Below are positions 3,140 to 9,415 of a stretch of 64,000 nucleotides of DNA, piece after piece. Origin of the DNA: Flagellimonas meishanensis (GTDB lineage: Bacteria; Bacteroidota; Bacteroidia; Flavobacteriales; Flavobacteriaceae); the NCBI RefSeq assembly GCF_019880545.1, contig NZ_JAINVW010000001.1, positions 744,001 to 808,000 of the forward strand. Direction: 5' to 3'. A model generated the notes under the pieces. The model made no database searches, was not told the origin of the DNA, and saw only the letters and a program-made list of their open reading frames with translations. Numbering within the stretch: position 1 is the first letter of the stretch; every line of letters starts with the position of its first letter. The translations under genes and the position numbers were made by a program.

Positions 3140-4309
3140 TCAAAGATCCCTTTGAAAGTTAGGTAGGGTTAGGACAATCATTTTTCCGAAGGCGGCATCA
3201 TTTTTCCCTGTAGACGTTTCATAGGCAATGCCAAAGCCCTTTACATTATTGAGCAGTTCAATTTGCTCCTGCCACCGGACCATTCCTTCCCTATATTCCG
3301 GAGGGGTAGAGTTCTTCAAATTGTTCTCTTGATATTGGAGCTTCAGCATAACGTGGCCCTCCCCAACATGGAATTGTATGTCAAAGTATTGTTCCTTCTG
3401 TTGACTGAACATGGACTGTTCTATAATGTTCTCAAAGAGCGTAAGGACAACAAACGATGGAATAACGACCTTGTTTAAGTCCTTCCCATTATCTTCCAAG
3501 GAAATGGTATAGTCAAAGGAGTCGTTGTATCTAAGGCTTTGTAGTTTTAGGTAACTCTTTAGCATGTCGATTTCATCAGCCAAATGGATTGTGTCTTTTT
3601 CCAGCGTTTTTAGGTAAAACCGAATCAAATGGCTGAACAGGGACAAATATTCCAGAGCCTTTCTTTTGTTCTCAGAAGTCACAAAATATTGAATCGCGTT
3701 CAAGGCGTTGAACACAAAATGGGGATTCAGCTGGGAATTCAGCGCTTTGAGTTTCAACGCCACTATTTCTTCCCTTATTTTTAGAAGGTTCTCCTGTTTT
3801 TCACTGAGTTCCCTGTTGGCCCTCACAGCCTTGATTTTGATAGCACAAATGGAGGCCACAGCCGAAAGCATTTTAAGGTGGTGTTCGGTGAAGAAGTTCT
3901 TTTTGGGATGCTCGCAGTCGATCACCCCGTAGATTATGTTTTCATGGGCAATTGGGACACAGATTTCCGAAAACCGCATGGCATCATCTTCAATGTAGCG
4001 GGGATCTTTGGAGGTATCGTGCACCAATTCGGGAATACCAGTTTTGGCAACGTGGCCGGTTATTCCTTCTCCCAGAACTATTTCCACGGGGTTGTACAGT
4101 GTATGATCCTTGGGACTTTTTGGTCCGTAAGCTGCCTTTTGAACAAGCAATTGGTTGTTATCATCCAATAGATAGATCACGCAATCCACAAAACCGAGCT
4201 TGGCAATGCAGTTTTTGGCGAGATCCCAAAGAATGTCATCCTCATTTTCCTTGCCCAGCAATGATTCGGAAAAATAGATCAAAATGTCTTCGAATAGGTT
4301 GTCTTTCAA
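3140..4309 (-). CDS. GAF-domain sensor with LytS-type histidine kinase region, degenerate ATPase
   Basis: A 389-residue soluble protein. A GAF domain (about residues 15-160) is followed by a coiled linker (160-190) and a PF06580-type phosphoacceptor region with NSQLNPHFVFNALNAIQYF (His197) and YLSLFSHLIRFYL. The C-terminal ATPase-like part keeps only a weak N-box, LFENIIEQSM at 291-300, and I see no DxGxG motif, so ATP binding is doubtful. No membrane segment is present, so the sensed ligand would be cytoplasmic. No in-frame ATG exists between the upstream stop and the conserved region. The start given is TTG at 4307-4309. No response regulator is adjacent. It may be a pseudokinase or a dimerisation partner. 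Confidence 0.8.
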   Translation of the reverse strand: MKDNLFEDILIYFSESLLGKENEDDILWDLAKNCIAKLGFVDCVIYLLDDNNQLLVQKAAYGPKSPKDHTLYNPVEIVLGEGITGHVAKTGIPELVHDTSKDPRYIEDDAMRFSEICVPIAHENIIYGVIDCEHPKKNFFTEHHLKMLSAVASICAIKIKAVRANRELSEKQENLLKIREEIVALKLKALNSQLNPHFVFNALNAIQYFVTSENKRKALEYLSLFSHLIRFYLKTLEKDTIHLADEIDMLKSYLKLQSLRYNDSFDYTISLEDNGKDLNKVVIPSFVVLTLFENIIEQSMFSQQKEQYFDIQFHVGEGHVMLKLQYQENNLKNSTPPEYREGMVRWQEQIELLNNVKGFGIAYETSTGKNDAAFGKMIVLTLPNFQRDL

Positions 4310-4406
4310 AACAATGCCATTTGCAGGGAAGGGTTAAATTAGTGATTTTTTTGTCTGATTGGATTACAGAGGGCAAATAACTGGTTCAACCACAGTGCAA
4401 TAAAAA

Positions 4407-4428
4407 CACCCCACAGGAATGTGGGGTG
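4407..4428 (-). terminator. rho-independent terminator of the sigma locus
   Basis: On the minus strand the perfect 9-bp stem CACCCCACA / TGTGGGGTG with a 4-nt loop is followed by TTTTTATT. It lies 50 bp past the stop of the barrel-protein gene and closes the lipoprotein-sigma-barrel operon. Confidence 0.85.
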
Positions 4429-4477: not shown

Positions 4478-5986
4478 CTAAAACCTTAAACTTACACCAC
4501 TGTAAACGCCAACCGAATAGGGCCTGAAAGGGCCGGCAGTTTCTGAAAACGTGTTCAGCTGATATTTAAAGACTGGCTCCAAGTTGAACTGGAGTTTTGG
4601 TGAAATTTCATAATTAAGCCCTATTCCAATATTGGTACTGTAATTTACCGAGTTGGCGTTGTTGGCCTCTCCCATTTCGGTCACAAGGTCCTGTGATTCC
4701 AGTAGCACGGAATTCTCCACAAGGAAAAGGGAACTTACTCCACCAATGAGGGCCACGCCCAGTTTTTTGTCCACCAAAGTATAGTTGAGTTCCAAAGGAA
4801 CCTCTATGTAGCCCAACTGTTGGACCATTTTGCCCTCTAAGGCCGGAACTTCATTGGCGGCCAGCTCCACCGAAGCATCGTTCAGGGCCCTGCCCTGGAA
4901 ATCATTTTTACTTTGCACCACGAGGGTACGTGATGTTTCACTGTAGTTAATATTGTCTATGGTCTGGTTCGTGGAGGATTCCAAGGAAGAGGAGAAAATC
5001 ACATCGTTTGTATCATAACCGTAATTGACCCTGTGCACGCCGGACCGCACCTTGAGTCTTTTTCCAATGTTGTAGGCCACGGTCAATCCATAACTGAGGT
5101 TCACGTTACCGGATTTGGAATTTGAGGCAAAATTGGAATGTATGGGCGACCCCTCACCGGAACCGTTGAAATACACCGGGGCCAAGGACGGGCCGACAGA
5201 CCATTTGTTTTGGGATGCATCCGCCACTTCAATTTCCTCTTCTTGTTCCGCAATGGCATCAAAAATGGATTTCTTTTCAAGTTCTTTTTCCTCCGGATCA
5301 TTTTGTGCCACAACTTCCTCGACCTCCTTCTCATTGTCCAAGGACTTGTATTGAAAATTCTTTTTGGAATTTGGATTCTCGCTGGTCCGCTCGGCAATGG
5401 CCTCCTTACCTTCCACGTTTTCTAGAATTATGGACTCCTTCTCTTTGTTAGCATCACTGTCCGACACTAAAGAGGTCTCCTTATTTTCTTGGAAGTCGGA
5501 AACGTCCGAAGCTGCATTTTTTACATGGTTTTCTTCTTGGTCATGGGTCCGTGTTGCCAAGCCATCTTTGGAATCAAAATGGGGGCGGTTATTATTGCCG
5601 GAATGCCCCGTGTTCCTGTCATCGTTCTTTTGGGTTTCCTTGGAAGCATCCGTAACGGTCTCTTTTTGTGTTCCATCAAATGGATCCTTTGCGTTCAGGC
5701 TGTCTTTGGTCACAACTTCTATTTGAGGTGAAGCATCCTCATTTTCCACCTCGGTGATAATGGTTTCCACGCTTCCATCGGCTTTGTCCAATGGATTTAT
5801 CACATAAAAGAGAAGTGCCAAAAGTGCTGCCACTCCTCCAAGGCGCCACCAAATAGGAACAACGCGCTTTTTTTGTTTCTTTCTGTCCAAAGTGGCTTCA
5901 ATGGAATTCCAAACCTTTTCATCCGGTTTTTGATGAAAATCCTTAAAAGTGTCTTTGAACAATTGCTCTAAATTCTTTTTCCCCAT
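4478..5986 (-). CDS. putative trans-envelope anti-sigma-like protein with C-terminal outer membrane beta-barrel
   Basis: 502 residues in three parts. Residues 1-43 are a charged cytoplasmic head (LEQLFKDTFKDF, PDEKVWNSIEATLDRKK). Residues 44-64 are one membrane helix (WWRLGGVAALLALLFYVI). Residues 65 to about 260 are a hydrophilic linker rich in Asp, Glu, Lys and Asn. About 265 to the end is a beta-barrel domain (WSVGPSLAPVYF, LSYGLTVAYNIGKRLKVRSG, NIGIGLNYEISPKLQFNLEP) ending in aromatic GVYSGVSLRF, as outer membrane proteins do. There is no cleavable signal peptide. It starts 12 bp after the ECF sigma gene. I infer an anti-sigma or sigma-linked sensor role. No zinc-type anti-sigma motif (HxxxCxxC) is seen. 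A plain outer membrane protein is the alternative. Confidence 0.72.
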   Translation of the reverse strand: MGKKNLEQLFKDTFKDFHQKPDEKVWNSIEATLDRKKQKKRVVPIWWRLGGVAALLALLFYVINPLDKADGSVETIITEVENEDASPQIEVVTKDSLNAKDPFDGTQKETVTDASKETQKNDDRNTGHSGNNNRPHFDSKDGLATRTHDQEENHVKNAASDVSDFQENKETSLVSDSDANKEKESIILENVEGKEAIAERTSENPNSKKNFQYKSLDNEKEVEEVVAQNDPEEKELEKKSIFDAIAEQEEEIEVADASQNKWSVGPSLAPVYFNGSGEGSPIHSNFASNSKSGNVNLSYGLTVAYNIGKRLKVRSGVHRVNYGYDTNDVIFSSSLESSTNQTIDNINYSETSRTLVVQSKNDFQGRALNDASVELAANEVPALEGKMVQQLGYIEVPLELNYTLVDKKLGVALIGGVSSLFLVENSVLLESQDLVTEMGEANNANSVNYSTNIGIGLNYEISPKLQFNLEPVFKYQLNTFSETAGPFRPYSVGVYSGVSLRF

Positions 5987-5998
5987 CGTTATTGGTCT

Positions 5999-6529
5999 TT
6001 AAGCAATGTTTATGTTTTCTTTTTCAATTTTTTCCCTCAAGATCATTTTGGCCCTGGCCAAATTTGATTTTGAGGTCCCCGTGGATGTCCCCAACATCTC
6101 ACTTATTTCCTTGTGGCTATATCCATCCAGAACATAGAGGTTGAAGGTCAACCTATACTTGTTTGGCAATTCTTGGATATATCCCAGAAGAGTGGACAGG
6201 CTTATGTCCAACCTTTCCGTATCCACCTCAACCTCTTCCCCATGATTTTCGGAAACTATGTTGAGGTGTTGTTCCTTTCTGTATTTCTGCAATACCGTGT
6301 TCACGGTGATTCTTTTGATCCAACCCTCAAAAGAACCTTTAAAACGATATTGGTCGATTTTGTTGAAAATGGTCACAAAACTGTCGTGCAGATTGTCTTC
6401 CGCTTCAGCCTTGTTTTTAGAGTATTTAAGGCACATACCAAAGAGTACGCCGGAATACCTGCGGTATAGTTCGGCCTGTGCCTCCCTTCTTCCTTTTTTA
6501 CAATTATGTATGAGCTCTTCAAGATCCAA
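5999..6529 (-). CDS. ECF-type RNA polymerase sigma-70 factor
   Basis: 176 residues, the usual ECF size, with sigma region 2 (LYRRYSGVLFGMCLKYSKN, AEDNLHDSFVTIFNKIDQY, FEGWIKRITVNTVLQKYRK) and region 4 (LPNKYRLTFNLYVLDGYSHK, EISEMLGTSTGTSKSNLARA). It lacks region 1.1 and region 3. No ATG is available: the frame is open upstream to a stop near 6598, and TTG at 6527-6529 is the best start. It lies 28 bp after the lipoprotein gene and 12 bp before the barrel-protein gene, so all three are probably one operon. A candidate ECF-type promoter at 7013-7042 suggests autoregulation (inference). Confidence 0.9.
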   Translation of the reverse strand: MDLEELIHNCKKGRREAQAELYRRYSGVLFGMCLKYSKNKAEAEDNLHDSFVTIFNKIDQYRFKGSFEGWIKRITVNTVLQKYRKEQHLNIVSENHGEEVEVDTERLDISLSTLLGYIQELPNKYRLTFNLYVLDGYSHKEISEMLGTSTGTSKSNLARAKMILREKIEKENINIA

Positions 6530-6557
6530 ATGTTGGTCAATTTTGGATTGTTTTTGC

Positions 6558-6998
6558 CTAGTTTGTCGGTGCTTCCTCCACAGGAACCGTGTACTCTAAA
6601 TATATGGAATCATTGTTTTCATCCTGTCCGCCATAGAACCTAAAATGATATTCACCTGTAAAAATCACATTGAACTTAAAAATCGCCGTGACTTCCTCAA
6701 TGGCTTGGGTGCATGCGGTATTTTCATCGGTCAAAACGGTTCCAATGGCAACAACCTCCCTGTCTGTGTCACCCGTTTTGGTGACCTCGAAACCCTCAAA
6801 GAATGTACAGCCGTCGGGCCTTAAATAGGTCACTTCAATATCGTAGGTCCGGTTTACCTGGAACACCTCCGGAAAAGAGGCGGCCACAACGTTCAATGTC
6901 GTAAAATGAAAATTCGGAGAATCGTCATCAAGATCACAGGCATTGAACAGACTGGACAGCACAACTAGAAATATAGGCACTAAACCCTTTTTCATCAT
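6558..6998 (-). CDS. hypothetical lipoprotein of the ECF sigma operon
   Basis: A 146-residue secreted protein. The signal peptide MMKKGLVPIFLVVLSSLFNAC has a lipobox ending at Cys21, followed by an acidic DLDDD that is typical of surface-exported or outer-membrane lipoproteins in Bacteroidota. The rest is beta-rich (VNRTYDIEVTYLRPDGCTFF, FKFNVIFTGEYHFRFYGGQD) with one Cys pair candidate. I do not recognise a named family. It is the first gene of the putative operon with the sigma factor and the barrel protein, 86 bp after recA. Its position suggests an envelope signal or output protein for the sigma system. Start chosen at the second in-frame codon (ATG 6996-6998) rather than the preceding TTG. 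Confidence 0.72.
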   Translation of the reverse strand: MMKKGLVPIFLVVLSSLFNACDLDDDSPNFHFTTLNVVAASFPEVFQVNRTYDIEVTYLRPDGCTFFEGFEVTKTGDTDREVVAIGTVLTDENTACTQAIEEVTAIFKFNVIFTGEYHFRFYGGQDENNDSIYLEYTVPVEEAPTN

Positions 6999-7012
6999 CA
7001 AAATCTTTTTTC

Positions 7013-7042
7013 TTAGATGATTGCAGTGTTTAAGGGTTGCGT
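7013..7042 (-). promoter_or_regulatory. candidate ECF-type promoter of the sigma operon
   Basis: On the minus strand ACGCAACC (7042-7035), a 16-nt spacer and ATCTAA (7018-7013) stand just before the lipoprotein gene. An AAC-containing -35 and about 16-nt spacing are typical of ECF sigma promoters. The same bipartite sequence occurs at 8152-8180 on the plus strand. No TAnnTTTG element is seen here, which supports use of an alternative sigma factor. Confidence 0.5.
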
Positions 7043-7087
7043 GGGACTTTCACAACCTTTGCCTAAGCCAAATGGGAATTCTGAGGC

Positions 7088-8095
7088 CTATTGCCCAATG
7101 GCCGAAATGGCTTCCTTAATTTTGTCCTCCAGTTCTTCGGAAAGTTCGGGATTGTCCACCAAAAGGGCCTTTACCGCATCCCTTCCCTGGCCAAGCTTGG
7201 TGTCGCCGTAGCTGAACCAAGAGCCACTTTTCTTGATGATCTCGTAAGCAACGCCCAAATCCAACACTTCGCCTACCTTGGAAATGCCTTCTCCGTACAT
7301 GATGTCAAACTCCGCGGTCTTGAATGGGGGCGCCACTTTGTTCTTCACCACTTTGACGCGGGTTTTGTTTCCTTGAATATTTCCATCCGTATCCTTGATC
7401 TGGGTAGATCGTCGAATGTCCAATCGTACAGAAGCGTAAAATTTAAGGGCATTTCCCCCGGTGGTGGTTTCCGGATTTCCGAACATCACGCCGATTTTTT
7501 CACGCAATTGATTGATAAAGATTACCGTACAATTGGTCTTGCTTATGGTGGAAGTCAATTTTCGGAGGGCCTGGGACATGAGCCGTGCATGCAAGCCCAT
7601 TTTTGAATCGCCCATTTCCCCTTCAATTTCACTTTTGGGGGTAAGCGCGGCCACGGAATCCACAATTACAATATCAATGGCCCCTGACCTGATCAAGTTC
7701 TCTGTAATTTCCAAGGCCTGCTCTCCATGATCGGGTTGGGAGATGATCAAATTGTCGATGTCCACACCCAATTTTTTGGCATAAAAACGATCAAATGCAT
7801 GCTCGGCATCGATAAATGCGGCAATACCCCCGGCTTTTTGTGCCTCTGCAATGGCATGCAAGGTCAAAGTGGTCTTTCCCGAAGATTCGGGACCATATAT
7901 TTCAATGACACGGCCTCTGGGATAGCCTCCCACGCCCAAGGCAATGTCAAGACCTATTGATCCGGACGAAATCACCTCGACATCTTCAACCACACTGTCC
8001 CCCATTTTCATCACAGCGCCCTTTCCATAGGTTTTGTCCAGCTTGTCCAATGTAAGTTTCAATGCCTTTAGCTTTGCCTCTTTCTCGTTGCTCAT
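7088..8095 (-). CDS. recA: recombinase RecA
   Basis: DNA strand-exchange recombinase and SOS coprotease. 335 residues, with Walker A GPESSGKT at residues 68-75 and the family signatures [58 protein letters not shown] and [20 protein letters not shown]. The C-terminus is short and only mildly acidic. It is preceded by a good housekeeping promoter at 8117-8147 and followed after about 90 bp by the sigma operon. No LexA-type palindrome was recognised before it. The identification is certain. Confidence 0.99.
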
Positions 8096-8116
8096 GGTAT
8101 TCGATTGTTAGGAAGG

Positions 8117-8147
8117 CTAAATTACACTTCTTTCGGCATGCGACAAA
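8117..8147 (-). promoter_or_regulatory. housekeeping promoter of recA
   Basis: On the minus strand TTTG (8147-8144), a 19-nt spacer and TAATTTAG (8124-8117) fit the Bacteroidota TTTG-N19-TAnnTTTG consensus with one mismatch. It lies about 20 bp before the recA start codon. Confidence 0.65.
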
Positions 8148-8151
8148 AGAG

Positions 8152-8180
8152 ACGCAACCTTTTTCTAAGATTGAATCTAA
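8152..8180 (+). promoter_or_regulatory. second copy of the ECF-type promoter motif, before the candidate RNA
   Basis: ACGCAACC (8152-8159), a 15-nt spacer and ATCTAA (8175-8180). Both boxes are identical to those before the sigma operon at 7013-7042. The expected start of transcription (about 7 nt downstream) coincides with the 5' arm of the foldable segment at 8187. Confidence 0.5.
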
Positions 8181-8186
8181 AGTGTA

Positions 8187-8310
8187 CTAACTCAAAATCC
8201 ATATAGCGGATTTGAATTTAAAGTCCGCTCTGGTAGGCAATGGGAAAAATTGCGCTATGGAAAAGAGGATTTAAGTTAGAAAGGGCTCTATATGGAGCCC
8301 TTTTCTTTTT
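8187..8310 (+). ncRNA. candidate structured small RNA with intrinsic terminator
   Basis: No reading frame of note lies here, but the sequence folds well. CTAACTCAAAATCC (8187-8200) pairs with GGATTTAAGTTAG (8267-8279). Inside are a hairpin AGCGGA / TCCGCT (8205-8229), extended by TTT/AAA, and a hairpin GCAAT / ATTGC (8237-8253). An alternative rod pairs ATAGCG (8203-8208) with CGCTAT (8253-8258), leaving a central bubble as in 6S-type RNAs. A terminator hairpin with a T-run follows at 8283-8310. The 6S-Flavo family is one possibility, but I cannot confirm it. Otherwise it is an unnamed sRNA, perhaps driven by the ECF-type promoter at 8152-8180. Confidence 0.55.
8283..8310 (+). terminator. rho-independent terminator of the candidate RNA
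   Basis: GGGCTC / GAGCCC stem with loop TATATG, followed by TTTTCTTTTT. No protein gene on the plus strand ends nearby, so it must end a non-coding transcript. Confidence 0.8.
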
Positions 8311-8335
8311 GGGCATTCCAGAATTTTTATCTTTG
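8308..8335 (+). promoter_or_regulatory. promoter of trhO
   Basis: TATCTTTG at 8328-8335 is a perfect TAnnTTTG -10 element, with TTTG at 8308-8311 (16-nt spacer, a little short). The -33 box overlaps the T-run of the preceding terminator. The leader would be about 45 nt. Confidence 0.55.
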
Positions 8336-8383
8336 CAGAAACATACAGAATAAACCATTCTTTAACTTAAATATTGGTATAGC

Positions 8384-9415
8384 ATGCAACTGTACAATAC
8401 GTTAAGTGCCAAGGAAAGGGAGAAGCTCATTGAGGAGGCCGGTAAAGATCGGCTTACCATCTCTTTCTACAAATATGCGCACATCGGCAACCCTCAGATT
8501 TTAAGAAATCACTTGTTCATAGCCTGGAACGAAATGGACGTGCTGGGGCGGATTTATGTGGCCCGTGAAGGGGTGAACGCCCAGCTTTCCGTTCCCGCTG
8601 AGAACTTCAACATCTTCAAAGCACATTTGGACAGCATAACCTTTCTGGAAAATGTGCGATTGAACATAGCTATTGAACAAGACAACAAATCATTCCTGAA
8701 ATTGAAAGTGAAAGTCAGGGAAAAAATTGTGGCCGATGGGCTTAATGATGACGCCTTTGACGTAACCAATAAAGGGGTGCACGTTGATGCCGAAAAGTTC
8801 AATGAGCTCATAGAAGATCCGGAGACCGTTTTGGTGGACATGAGAAACCATTACGAAAGTGAAATAGGCCATTTCAAGAATGCCATAACTCCCAATGTGG
8901 ATACTTTTAGGGATTCGTTGGACATTATTGAAGAGGATCTGTCAGAGCACAAAGAGGACAAAAAATTGGTCATGTATTGCACAGGTGGTATTCGTTGTGA
9001 GAAGGCCAGTGCCTATTACAAGCATAAAGGATTCAAAAATGTGTACCAGTTGGAAGGGGGCATTATTGAATACGCAAGACAGGTTAGGGAAAAAAATCTC
9101 GAAAACAAGTTTTTGGGCAAGAACTTTGTCTTTGACCATCGAAGGGGAGAGCGCATTTCAGAGGATGTCATTTCCAACTGCCACCAATGCGGAAAACCAT
9201 GCGACACCCATGTCAACTGCGCCAATGAAGCGTGCCACTTGCTCTTTATCCAATGCGAGGAGTGCGCAAGGGCCATGAATGAATGCTGTTCCGATGCGTG
9301 CAAGGAAATACATGCCTTGCCCTATGAAGAACAAAAGAAGCTGCGCAAGGGCAAAACCGTAAGCAACAAAATATTCAAAAAAGGGCGTTCCCCGGTATTG
9401 AAATACAAAAAGTAG
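8384..9415 (+). CDS. trhO: tRNA uridine(34) hydroxylase, rhodanese family
   Basis: TrhO (YceA) uses O2 to make 5-hydroxyuridine at the wobble position of certain tRNAs. The 343-residue protein has the N-terminal acylphosphatase-like domain (FYKYAHIGNPQILRNHLF, GRIYVAREGVNAQLSVP) and a rhodanese domain (VLVDMRNHYESEIGHFKNA) with active-site Cys199 in MYCTGGIRCEKASAYYK. A cysteine-rich C-terminal segment (CHQCGKPCDTHVNC, CEECARAMNECCSDAC) probably binds metal, as in homologues. It is preceded by its own promoter. Length and motifs match the family throughout. Confidence 0.95.
   Translation: MQLYNTLSAKEREKLIEEAGKDRLTISFYKYAHIGNPQILRNHLFIAWNEMDVLGRIYVAREGVNAQLSVPAENFNIFKAHLDSITFLENVRLNIAIEQDNKSFLKLKVKVREKIVADGLNDDAFDVTNKGVHVDAEKFNELIEDPETVLVDMRNHYESEIGHFKNAITPNVDTFRDSLDIIEEDLSEHKEDKKLVMYCTGGIRCEKASAYYKHKGFKNVYQLEGGIIEYARQVREKNLENKFLGKNFVFDHRRGERISEDVISNCHQCGKPCDTHVNCANEACHLLFIQCEECARAMNECCSDACKEIHALPYEEQKKLRKGKTVSNKIFKKGRSPVLKYKK

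Follow-up and report, generated by a model that had tools for sequence, protein, structure and literature searches.

A putative Dma-type anti-sigma factor beside recA in Flavobacteriaceae, with predicted lipoprotein targets and a candidate regulatory RNA

In the marine bacterium Flagellimonas meishanensis (Flavobacteriaceae), three minus-strand genes lie next to recA. They encode a lipoprotein, an extracytoplasmic function (ECF) sigma factor and a protein of 502 residues that, to judge from its sequence, is an anti-sigma factor of the Dma type, a class known from gut Bacteroidales. The genes occupy positions 6998-4478 of the DNA analyzed here, 64,000 nucleotides of contig NZ_JAINVW010000001.1 (positions 744,001 to 808,000, forward strand; hereafter the window). 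Upstream of the operon and on the same strand lies recA (8095-7088; named by Pfam and NCBIfam), from which trhO (8384-9415; TrhO by NCBIfam) diverges, and 12 bp separate the sigma gene from the gene for the 502-residue protein. An earlier interpretation of the same DNA from its letters alone (the sequence-only reading) had given coordinates, strand and spacing for the operon that hold on re-reading. The genes and the parts of the third product are:

6558..6998, minus strand: first gene, lipoprotein of 146 residues (homolog in 71/71 relatives)
5999..6529, minus strand: second gene, ECF sigma factor of 176 residues, TTG start (Sigma70_r2 and Sigma70_r4_2 by Pfam)
4478..5986, minus strand: third gene, putative Dma-type anti-sigma factor of 502 residues, ATG start (Pfam, model, profile comparison)
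5858..5986, minus strand: head, residues 1-43, proposed sigma-binding part (profile of residues 1-66 against Bacteroidales-type Dma heads)
5792..5857, minus strand: transmembrane helix region, residues 44-65 (model helix 45-62; hydrophobic segment 44-65)
5213..5791, minus strand: predicted disordered acidic periplasmic linker, residues 66-258 (low predicted local distance difference test score, pLDDT; conservation 0.30)
4481..5212, minus strand: predicted outer-membrane beta-barrel, residues 259-502 (PF13568; structural matches; barrel profile)

The 502-residue protein opens with a charged head (12 Lys/Arg and 7 Asp/Glu among residues 1-43), passes through a single transmembrane helix that is seen both in the sequence and in the model and, beyond a linker with 51 Asp/Glu and 23 Lys/Arg, ends in a barrel whose C-terminal residue is Phe. 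The AlphaFold2 model, which was run on an alignment of 39 sequences and is weak as a whole (pLDDT 55; predicted template modeling score, pTM, 0.40), folds residues 259-502 into an OmpA-like barrel and leaves nearly all of residues 71-237 below pLDDT 50. This barrel matches NspA (Z 14.7, root-mean-square deviation (rmsd) 3.4, 153 aligned), OprF (Z 14.5, rmsd 2.5, 130 aligned) and OmpA (Z 14.2, rmsd 3.0, 163 aligned), and Pfam places PF13568 (OMP_b-brl_2) at residues 285-475 with E 3.8e-6 and 27.5 bits, the cut-off being 27. Across 72 aligned sequences, the F. meishanensis protein included, the frequency of the commonest residue averages 0.72 both in the head (1-42) and in the transmembrane segment (43-65) and 0.73 in the barrel (261-502), but 0.30 in the linker (66-260); the final residue is Phe in 72/72. 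The sequence-only reading had described a charged 43-residue head, one membrane helix, a hydrophilic linker of about 195 residues and a C-terminal barrel with an aromatic end; each of these parts reappears here, the linker with 193 residues that are mostly below pLDDT 50 and the barrel with Z scores of 14-15 to known barrels. Structure prediction of the protein alone had been named as a check that might find something other than a barrel at the C-terminus, and it found a barrel.

The scan of genome contigs yielded 71 relatives from Flavobacteriaceae genera, including Allomuricauda/Flagellimonas, Maribacter, Muriicola, Croceivirga, Cellulophaga and Sinomicrobium, and from records whose names go no further than family or class. 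The order lipoprotein-sigma-Dma is kept in 71/71, so that the loss of linkage to the sigma gene which the sequence-only reading had regarded as damaging is not seen. With the F. meishanensis locus included, the median intergenic gaps are 28 and 11 nucleotides (nt), the sigma-Dma gap falls between -10 and 30 in 62 of the 72 loci, and recA is present in 71. Two loci, L043 (contig end) and L064 (head out of frame in the translation), were excluded from the alignment references and kept in the 72-locus counts; the alignments themselves are subsets of the relatives (39 sequences each in A1 and A2, 20 in A3 and 30 in A5). In a draw of 296 genomes from the phylum, which may share species with the 71-relative set, Dma matches occur in 52, with 27 of the 30 same-family genomes among those listed. 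A sigma match accompanies all 29 loci taken from other genomes of this draw (L116-L144), and the lipoprotein family is found at 16 of the 29, one match being weak. At L133, the sigma profile and the end of the Dma profile both hit one 218-residue frame (1501-2154), which may be a fusion that arose by deletion. The sigma gene starts with TTG at 65 of the 72 loci, with GTG at 6 and with ATG at 1 (the start was chosen by us), and the anti-sigma gene with ATG at 71; the rare start of the former as against the ATG of the latter is possibly a conserved way of keeping the sigma factor below its inhibitor.

Within the F. meishanensis genome, a profile search for Dma-type loci finds this locus only. 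The search for further ECF genes with transmembrane-barrel neighbors that the sequence-only reading had suggested likewise came back empty in this genome: none of the 18 Sigma70_r4_2 loci examined besides that of the operon is followed by a transmembrane-plus-barrel protein (26 matches including that of the operon, 7 of them outside the examined set; among the 18, L108 has no neighbor listing and L115 no evident sigma gene). At L104 (G000:C3:487500-496000), the sigma gene is followed by a 179-residue single-pass protein without a Pfam match, in which a head (KLWANISAEL) that is Dma-like by eye precedes the transmembrane helix and which has no barrel.

The Dma family was reportedly named in a 2024 PNAS paper by Pardue. 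The Dma design, which the accessible part of one account states to be exclusive to Bacteroidota, consists of an anti-sigma domain, a transmembrane helix, a disordered tether and a barrel, and is encoded next to an ECF21 sigma factor; Dma1 directly controls Das1, and the loss of Dma2 works via Das2 (Pardue 2026, PMC13088901). A further paper cites the 2024 Dma work in its accessible part without adding to it (PMC12045153). In Phocaeicola vulgatus, Evans (2022) described a trans-envelope barrel anti-sigma factor, the loss of which turns on its regulon (PMC9308784). According to a 2026 paper, Reo traverses all five compartments, and three nigD genes are driven by EcfO (PMC13114119).

Comparison of profiles places the F. 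meishanensis protein in this class. Set against 12 Bacteroidales-type Dma heads, the profile of its head (residues 1-66) reaches an hhalign probability of 97.0% (E 1e-10), and its barrel profile reaches 97.5% (E 5.6e-12) against the corresponding barrels; the crossed head-barrel controls give 0.3% and 0.1%. In seven comparison genomes, the sigma profile has 16 matches of at least 83 bits, the next scoring 69.9, and 15 of the 16 adjoin, or are fused to, a Dma-like sequence: 12 lie beside a separate protein of 351-439 residues whose ends are Dma-like and whose transmembrane helix falls at about residues 45-62, two are single sigma-transmembrane-barrel chains and one is a split form of such a chain. 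The two fusions (L209:3263-4906 and L214:4071-5774; 547 and 567 residues), natural chains without a head, and the split form in two overlapping frames (L212:3922-5414) are Dma3-like; Pfam was run on both fusions and on three of the 12 separate proteins. As in the published dma2 operon, a DUF4943 gene stands beside two of the Dma-linked sigma loci (L210 and L211). An indirect sign of the group to which the sigma factor may belong is that its top matches in the seven genomes are Dma-linked, two of them with DUF4943. These genomes were picked for NigD_C matches, so that the adjacency of NigD in them is not a rate, and are labeled Bacteroidales for their content of NigD and DUF4943.

We conclude that the 502-residue protein is by homology of the Dma type and hence probably an anti-sigma factor. 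It has no cysteine, and the zinc anti-sigma motif HxxxCxxC is likewise absent from its whole sequence, from which the sequence-only reading had deduced a different anti-sigma type; that deduction agrees with the published Dma/Reo design, and the single chain sitting in two membranes, also proposed there, is the published topology of these anti-sigma factors (PMC13088901, PMC9308784). The sequence-only reading was right in its observations and pointed to the correct type of system, although one already known; it is the predicted output that deserves a second look. A trans-envelope anti-sigma factor as such is no novelty. New here, and all predicted, are the lipoprotein as constant partner in the three-gene order, the promoter motif, the lipoprotein targets and the RNA described below. 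The literature searched, which was largely without subscription papers, yielded no description of a Dma protein from Flavobacteriaceae or of the RNA in the recA-trhO gap.

The lipoprotein is the constant partner of the sigma-Dma pair in all 71 relatives. It carries the lipobox Cys21 and two more invariant cysteines (64 and 96; alignment of 39), and its model is a beta-sandwich of seven strands (pLDDT 88). Pfam searches with 39 members gave nothing credible and no match to NigD_N or NigD_C, comparison with the PDB by sequence gave no credible match, and Foldseek found no match to the model at E 0.001. In the structural comparison, 5bmt comes first (Z 7.4), and the next four rows, at about 6, are 3qwn (Z 6.1, rmsd 3.4, 95 aligned), 8ayh, 3k0y (Z 6.0, rmsd 3.3, 94 aligned) and 3nqi (Z 5.9, rmsd 3.3, 100 aligned), values below 8 that may reflect a common arrangement only. 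By profile, 3qwn and 3k0y are NigD, 3nqi is BF3042 with an N-terminal domain that is NigD_N-like by Pfam, and 8ayh is complement C5, which is unrelated to the lipoprotein. The modeled fold may weakly resemble that of NigD, a lipoprotein under the control of EcfO-Reo in Bacteroidales. Assignment of the lipoprotein to NigD by sequence was rejected: an hhalign probability of 90.9% spans only 25 columns, covering the signal peptide and lipobox, and the mature parts reach 0.3% and 0.2%.

Gene position argues for the lipoprotein as a counterpart of NigD. At L182 and L184, NigD, sigma and Dma follow in this order on one strand, and at three loci (L179-L181) NigD is divergent from sigma-Dma; a close sigma relative lies in the flanks of 6 of the 34 NigD_C loci examined, some flanks being cut by contig ends. 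Other Dma loci have small lipoprotein-type genes that are NigD_N-like (L205) or belong to DUF4943 (L210, L211) or DUF4840 (L213), so that a small lipoprotein of one kind or another often accompanies the sigma-Dma pair. The sequence-only reading was correct in taking the lipoprotein as the first gene of the operon; as to its suggestion of an envelope signal, the protein would be an output or a partner of the system and not a signal only.

The regulatory features around the operon are:

7015..7042, minus strand: ECF-type promoter predicted for the operon, ACGCAACC-N15-CATCT (match with zero mismatches; 16 nt separate its end from the lipoprotein ATG)
8152..8178, plus strand: second promoter-like copy in the recA-trhO gap, weaker (spacer 14, AATCT; motif comparison across loci)
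8184..8310, plus strand: predicted structured RNA of about 125 nt ending in a terminator (stem 8279-8304; terminator and fold score)
4401..4428, minus strand: terminator-like hairpin with a T run, 3' of the operon (read from the sequence; a shorter register is listed at 4422-4406)

Farther downstream of the operon, at 3140-4309, the window encodes a protein with GAF and histidine-kinase domains (Pfam), a homolog of which is found at 35 of the 72 loci.

The motif GCAACC-N15-CATCT precedes the lipoprotein gene at 70 of the 72 loci, and the spacer is 15 in 70/70 although 12-19 was permitted. It ends 16-26 nt before the start codon (114 nt at one locus), and most of the sequence around it has diverged; of the two loci that lack it, one is at a contig end and the other reads CATCC. 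In 18 genomes, ACGCAACC-N15-CATCT with at most one mismatch has 104 sites, compared with 45 for the reversed decoy. A lipoprotein start lies 8-47 nt downstream of 43 of the 104. The operon accounts for 17 of these, and its eighteenth site (L261) is the one 114 nt from the start; a further 3 sites stand before another exported protein and 15 before another frame. Outside the operon, lipoprotein-type genes follow 26 of 86 sites and none of the 45 decoys (P 4.6e-6, with related genomes treated as independent), or 25 of 86 (P 9e-6) without L292, where the lipoprotein call (GTG start, 55 residues within a longer frame) looks false. The motif is thus enriched before lipoprotein-type genes, as called by a pattern of our own rather than a trained predictor. 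Targets that recur by eye are a lipoprotein of about 155 residues (L240, L279, L289, L290, L291, L309), one of about 415 residues (L239, L299, L303; LVIVD repeats by Pfam in L239 and L299) and a fasciclin lipoprotein (L293, L322). In the F. meishanensis genome the sole non-operon site of this kind, C1:257050 (L230), precedes a 124-residue exported protein that was not scored as a lipoprotein. In seven genomes, ACGCAACC...CCTCT recurs inside a frame of about 550-575 residues (L225, L231, L250, L268, L286, L307, L314); these one-mismatch sites, which look like conserved coding sequence, were rejected as regulon members and retained in the 86 counted.

A motif of the same kind directed towards trhO occurs in the recA-trhO gap at 45 of 61 loci with spacer 15, and at 52 of 61 with spacer 14-15. 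The fold of the RNA predicted to start from it in the window is better than that of any of 200 shuffled versions (z -4.87), and eight other such RNAs have fold z values from -2.2 to -5.4, to which the terminator contributes part. Rfam returns eight matches up to E 10 for positions 7000-8500, none near the cut-off, and assigns no family. The consensus fold of 30 aligned RNAs supports five terminator pairs, two of them with both sides changed, so that covariation backs the terminator only and not the larger folds of single sequences. Just 5' of the terminator, letters like CTATGAAAAAG are kept in most loci, and the letter before TG in this stretch is A, T or G, never C (50/53, where the pattern was found). 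We propose to read the stretch as an anti-mRNA seed or a start-codon mimic; a peptide encoded there was considered and not called, the reading frame varying in length and content.

The transcript from 8184 may instead be a 5' leader or attenuator of trhO, to which we give not far short of an even chance. It would lie immediately 5' of trhO and share its strand, and in Flavobacterium psychrophilum an ECF-type promoter, its box being CGT, serves a gene annotated YceA, a rhodanese-related sulfurtransferase, which makes the leader a serious rival; however, the published box is unlike CATCT, a terminator is detected at 43 of 52 loci and in the window, and between this terminator and trhO stands a separate TAnnTTTG box, the primary-sigma box of Bacteroidetes (PMC9723704). 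If the RNA is nevertheless an independent regulator, it would add a layer that is absent from the accessible parts of the published accounts of Dma/Reo systems.

A rather unlikely alternative accepts the anti-sigma factor and assigns the non-operon GCAACC-N15-CATCT sites to a different sigma factor, or denies them any common regulon, in which case the lipoprotein regulon would not be that of this sigma factor. The motif is linked to the sigma factor of the operon solely by its place before that operon, at least 16 other ECF-type sigma genes are present in the F. meishanensis genome, and the ECF motif SM6 of F. psychrophilum (CGT box) is perhaps common to several sigma factors (PMC9723704). Yet a near-invariant motif with a fixed spacer before the sigma factor's own operon is what autoregulation would give, and the motif precedes lipoprotein-type genes far oftener than the decoy does. 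That the 502-residue protein is a common barrel of the outer membrane, odd only in its N-terminus (an uncleaved signal anchor, for instance), and adjoins the sigma gene incidentally is very improbable: Pfam matches it best to a generic family of barrels and gives no match above the cut-off for its head, but the head is as conserved as the barrel and matches Dma-type heads, the sigma gene precedes it in every relative and has a match at every phylum-draw locus examined, and natural sigma-transmembrane-barrel fusions exist.

Several observations weigh against the reading of the operon as a Dma system with a lipoprotein regulon. The Pfam barrel score is only just above its cut-off, the AlphaFold confidence is modest, and the model covers the 502-residue protein alone, without the sigma factor. 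At L183, the sixteenth of the close sigma relatives has as partner a short single-pass protein without a barrel, so that this sigma type can do without one; the genes there run NigD (5932-5219), sigma (5136-4552), the single-pass protein and a 380-residue exported protein. The motif was not found at Bacteroidales-type loci before sigma or NigD starts. In the F. meishanensis genome, the strict motif with N14-16 has four matches and the reversed control also four, which makes the count in this genome uninformative. Among the 104 sites, 43 lack a suitably spaced start codon, and the compared genomes being related, sites in orthologous genes are not independent.

The 502-residue protein probably holds back the sigma factor until the envelope is damaged. 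Its barrel would sit in the outer membrane, the disordered linker would run through the periplasm and the single helix through the inner membrane, with the head of about 43 residues holding the ECF sigma factor. Outer-membrane damage or faulty barrel assembly would free the sigma factor, most likely because the anti-sigma factor is lost or proteolyzed, and the free sigma factor would read GCAACC-N15-CATCT promoters: that of its own operon, giving feedback and new anti-sigma factor as a reset, and those of a species-variable set of lipoproteins and of the RNA between recA and trhO. We regard a flavobacterial Dma system as highly likely. The architecture, the homology to Dma-type proteins, the synteny, the conserved motif and its enrichment before lipoprotein-type genes are seen in the data, and sigma binding, the use of these promoters by this sigma factor, the signal and the release step are inferred from them. 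More tentatively, with somewhat less than an even chance, the operon may represent an outer-membrane stress response of Flavobacteriaceae, in which a trans-envelope anti-sigma factor gates an ECF sigma factor that drives lineage-variable surface lipoproteins and a regulatory RNA of about 125 nt, an independently built Bacteroidota counterpart of the Escherichia coli sigma-E system with its small-RNA arm. The Dma/Reo class would extend from gut Bacteroidales to Flavobacteriaceae, in an operon beside recA, which opens the class to study in environmental bacteria, and the fixed promoter offers a handle on the regulon from sequence alone. Lipoprotein targets, predicted here and demonstrated experimentally in P. 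vulgatus, suggest remodeling of surface lipoproteins as a common output.

With Dma1/Das1, Dma2/Das2 and Dma3 of Bacteroides thetaiotaomicron, the F. meishanensis system shares the head, transmembrane helix, disordered tether, C-terminal barrel and adjoining ECF sigma gene, as well as a further small gene that belongs to the operon (in dma2, DUF4943); it differs in its Flavobacteriales host, its fixed place at the recA locus and the lipoprotein family of its first gene, and a sigma promoter and targets, predicted here, are absent from the accessible part of the Dma account. With EcfO-Reo of P. vulgatus and Bacteroides fragilis it would share a trans-envelope anti-sigma factor thought to sense outer-membrane stress, and the surface lipoproteins of that regulon, including the three nigD genes, resemble the targets predicted here (PMC13114119, PMC9308784); as a difference from EcfO-Reo, the lipoprotein gene is here part of the operon of the sigma factor, and the likeness of its product to NigD in sequence stops at the signal peptide and lipobox. 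Single-pass anti-sigma factors, such as the protein at L104, appear by eye to have a similar W..I...L motif in the head before one transmembrane helix, but lack the linker and barrel. In E. coli, outer-membrane stress is read by the ECF sigma factor Sigma-E, with small RNAs, and its anti-sigma factor RseA ends in the periplasm, so that separate sensors are required. The two systems would be alike in the ECF readout of outer-membrane stress and possibly in a small-RNA arm, whereas in F. meishanensis sensor and anti-sigma factor would be one chain.

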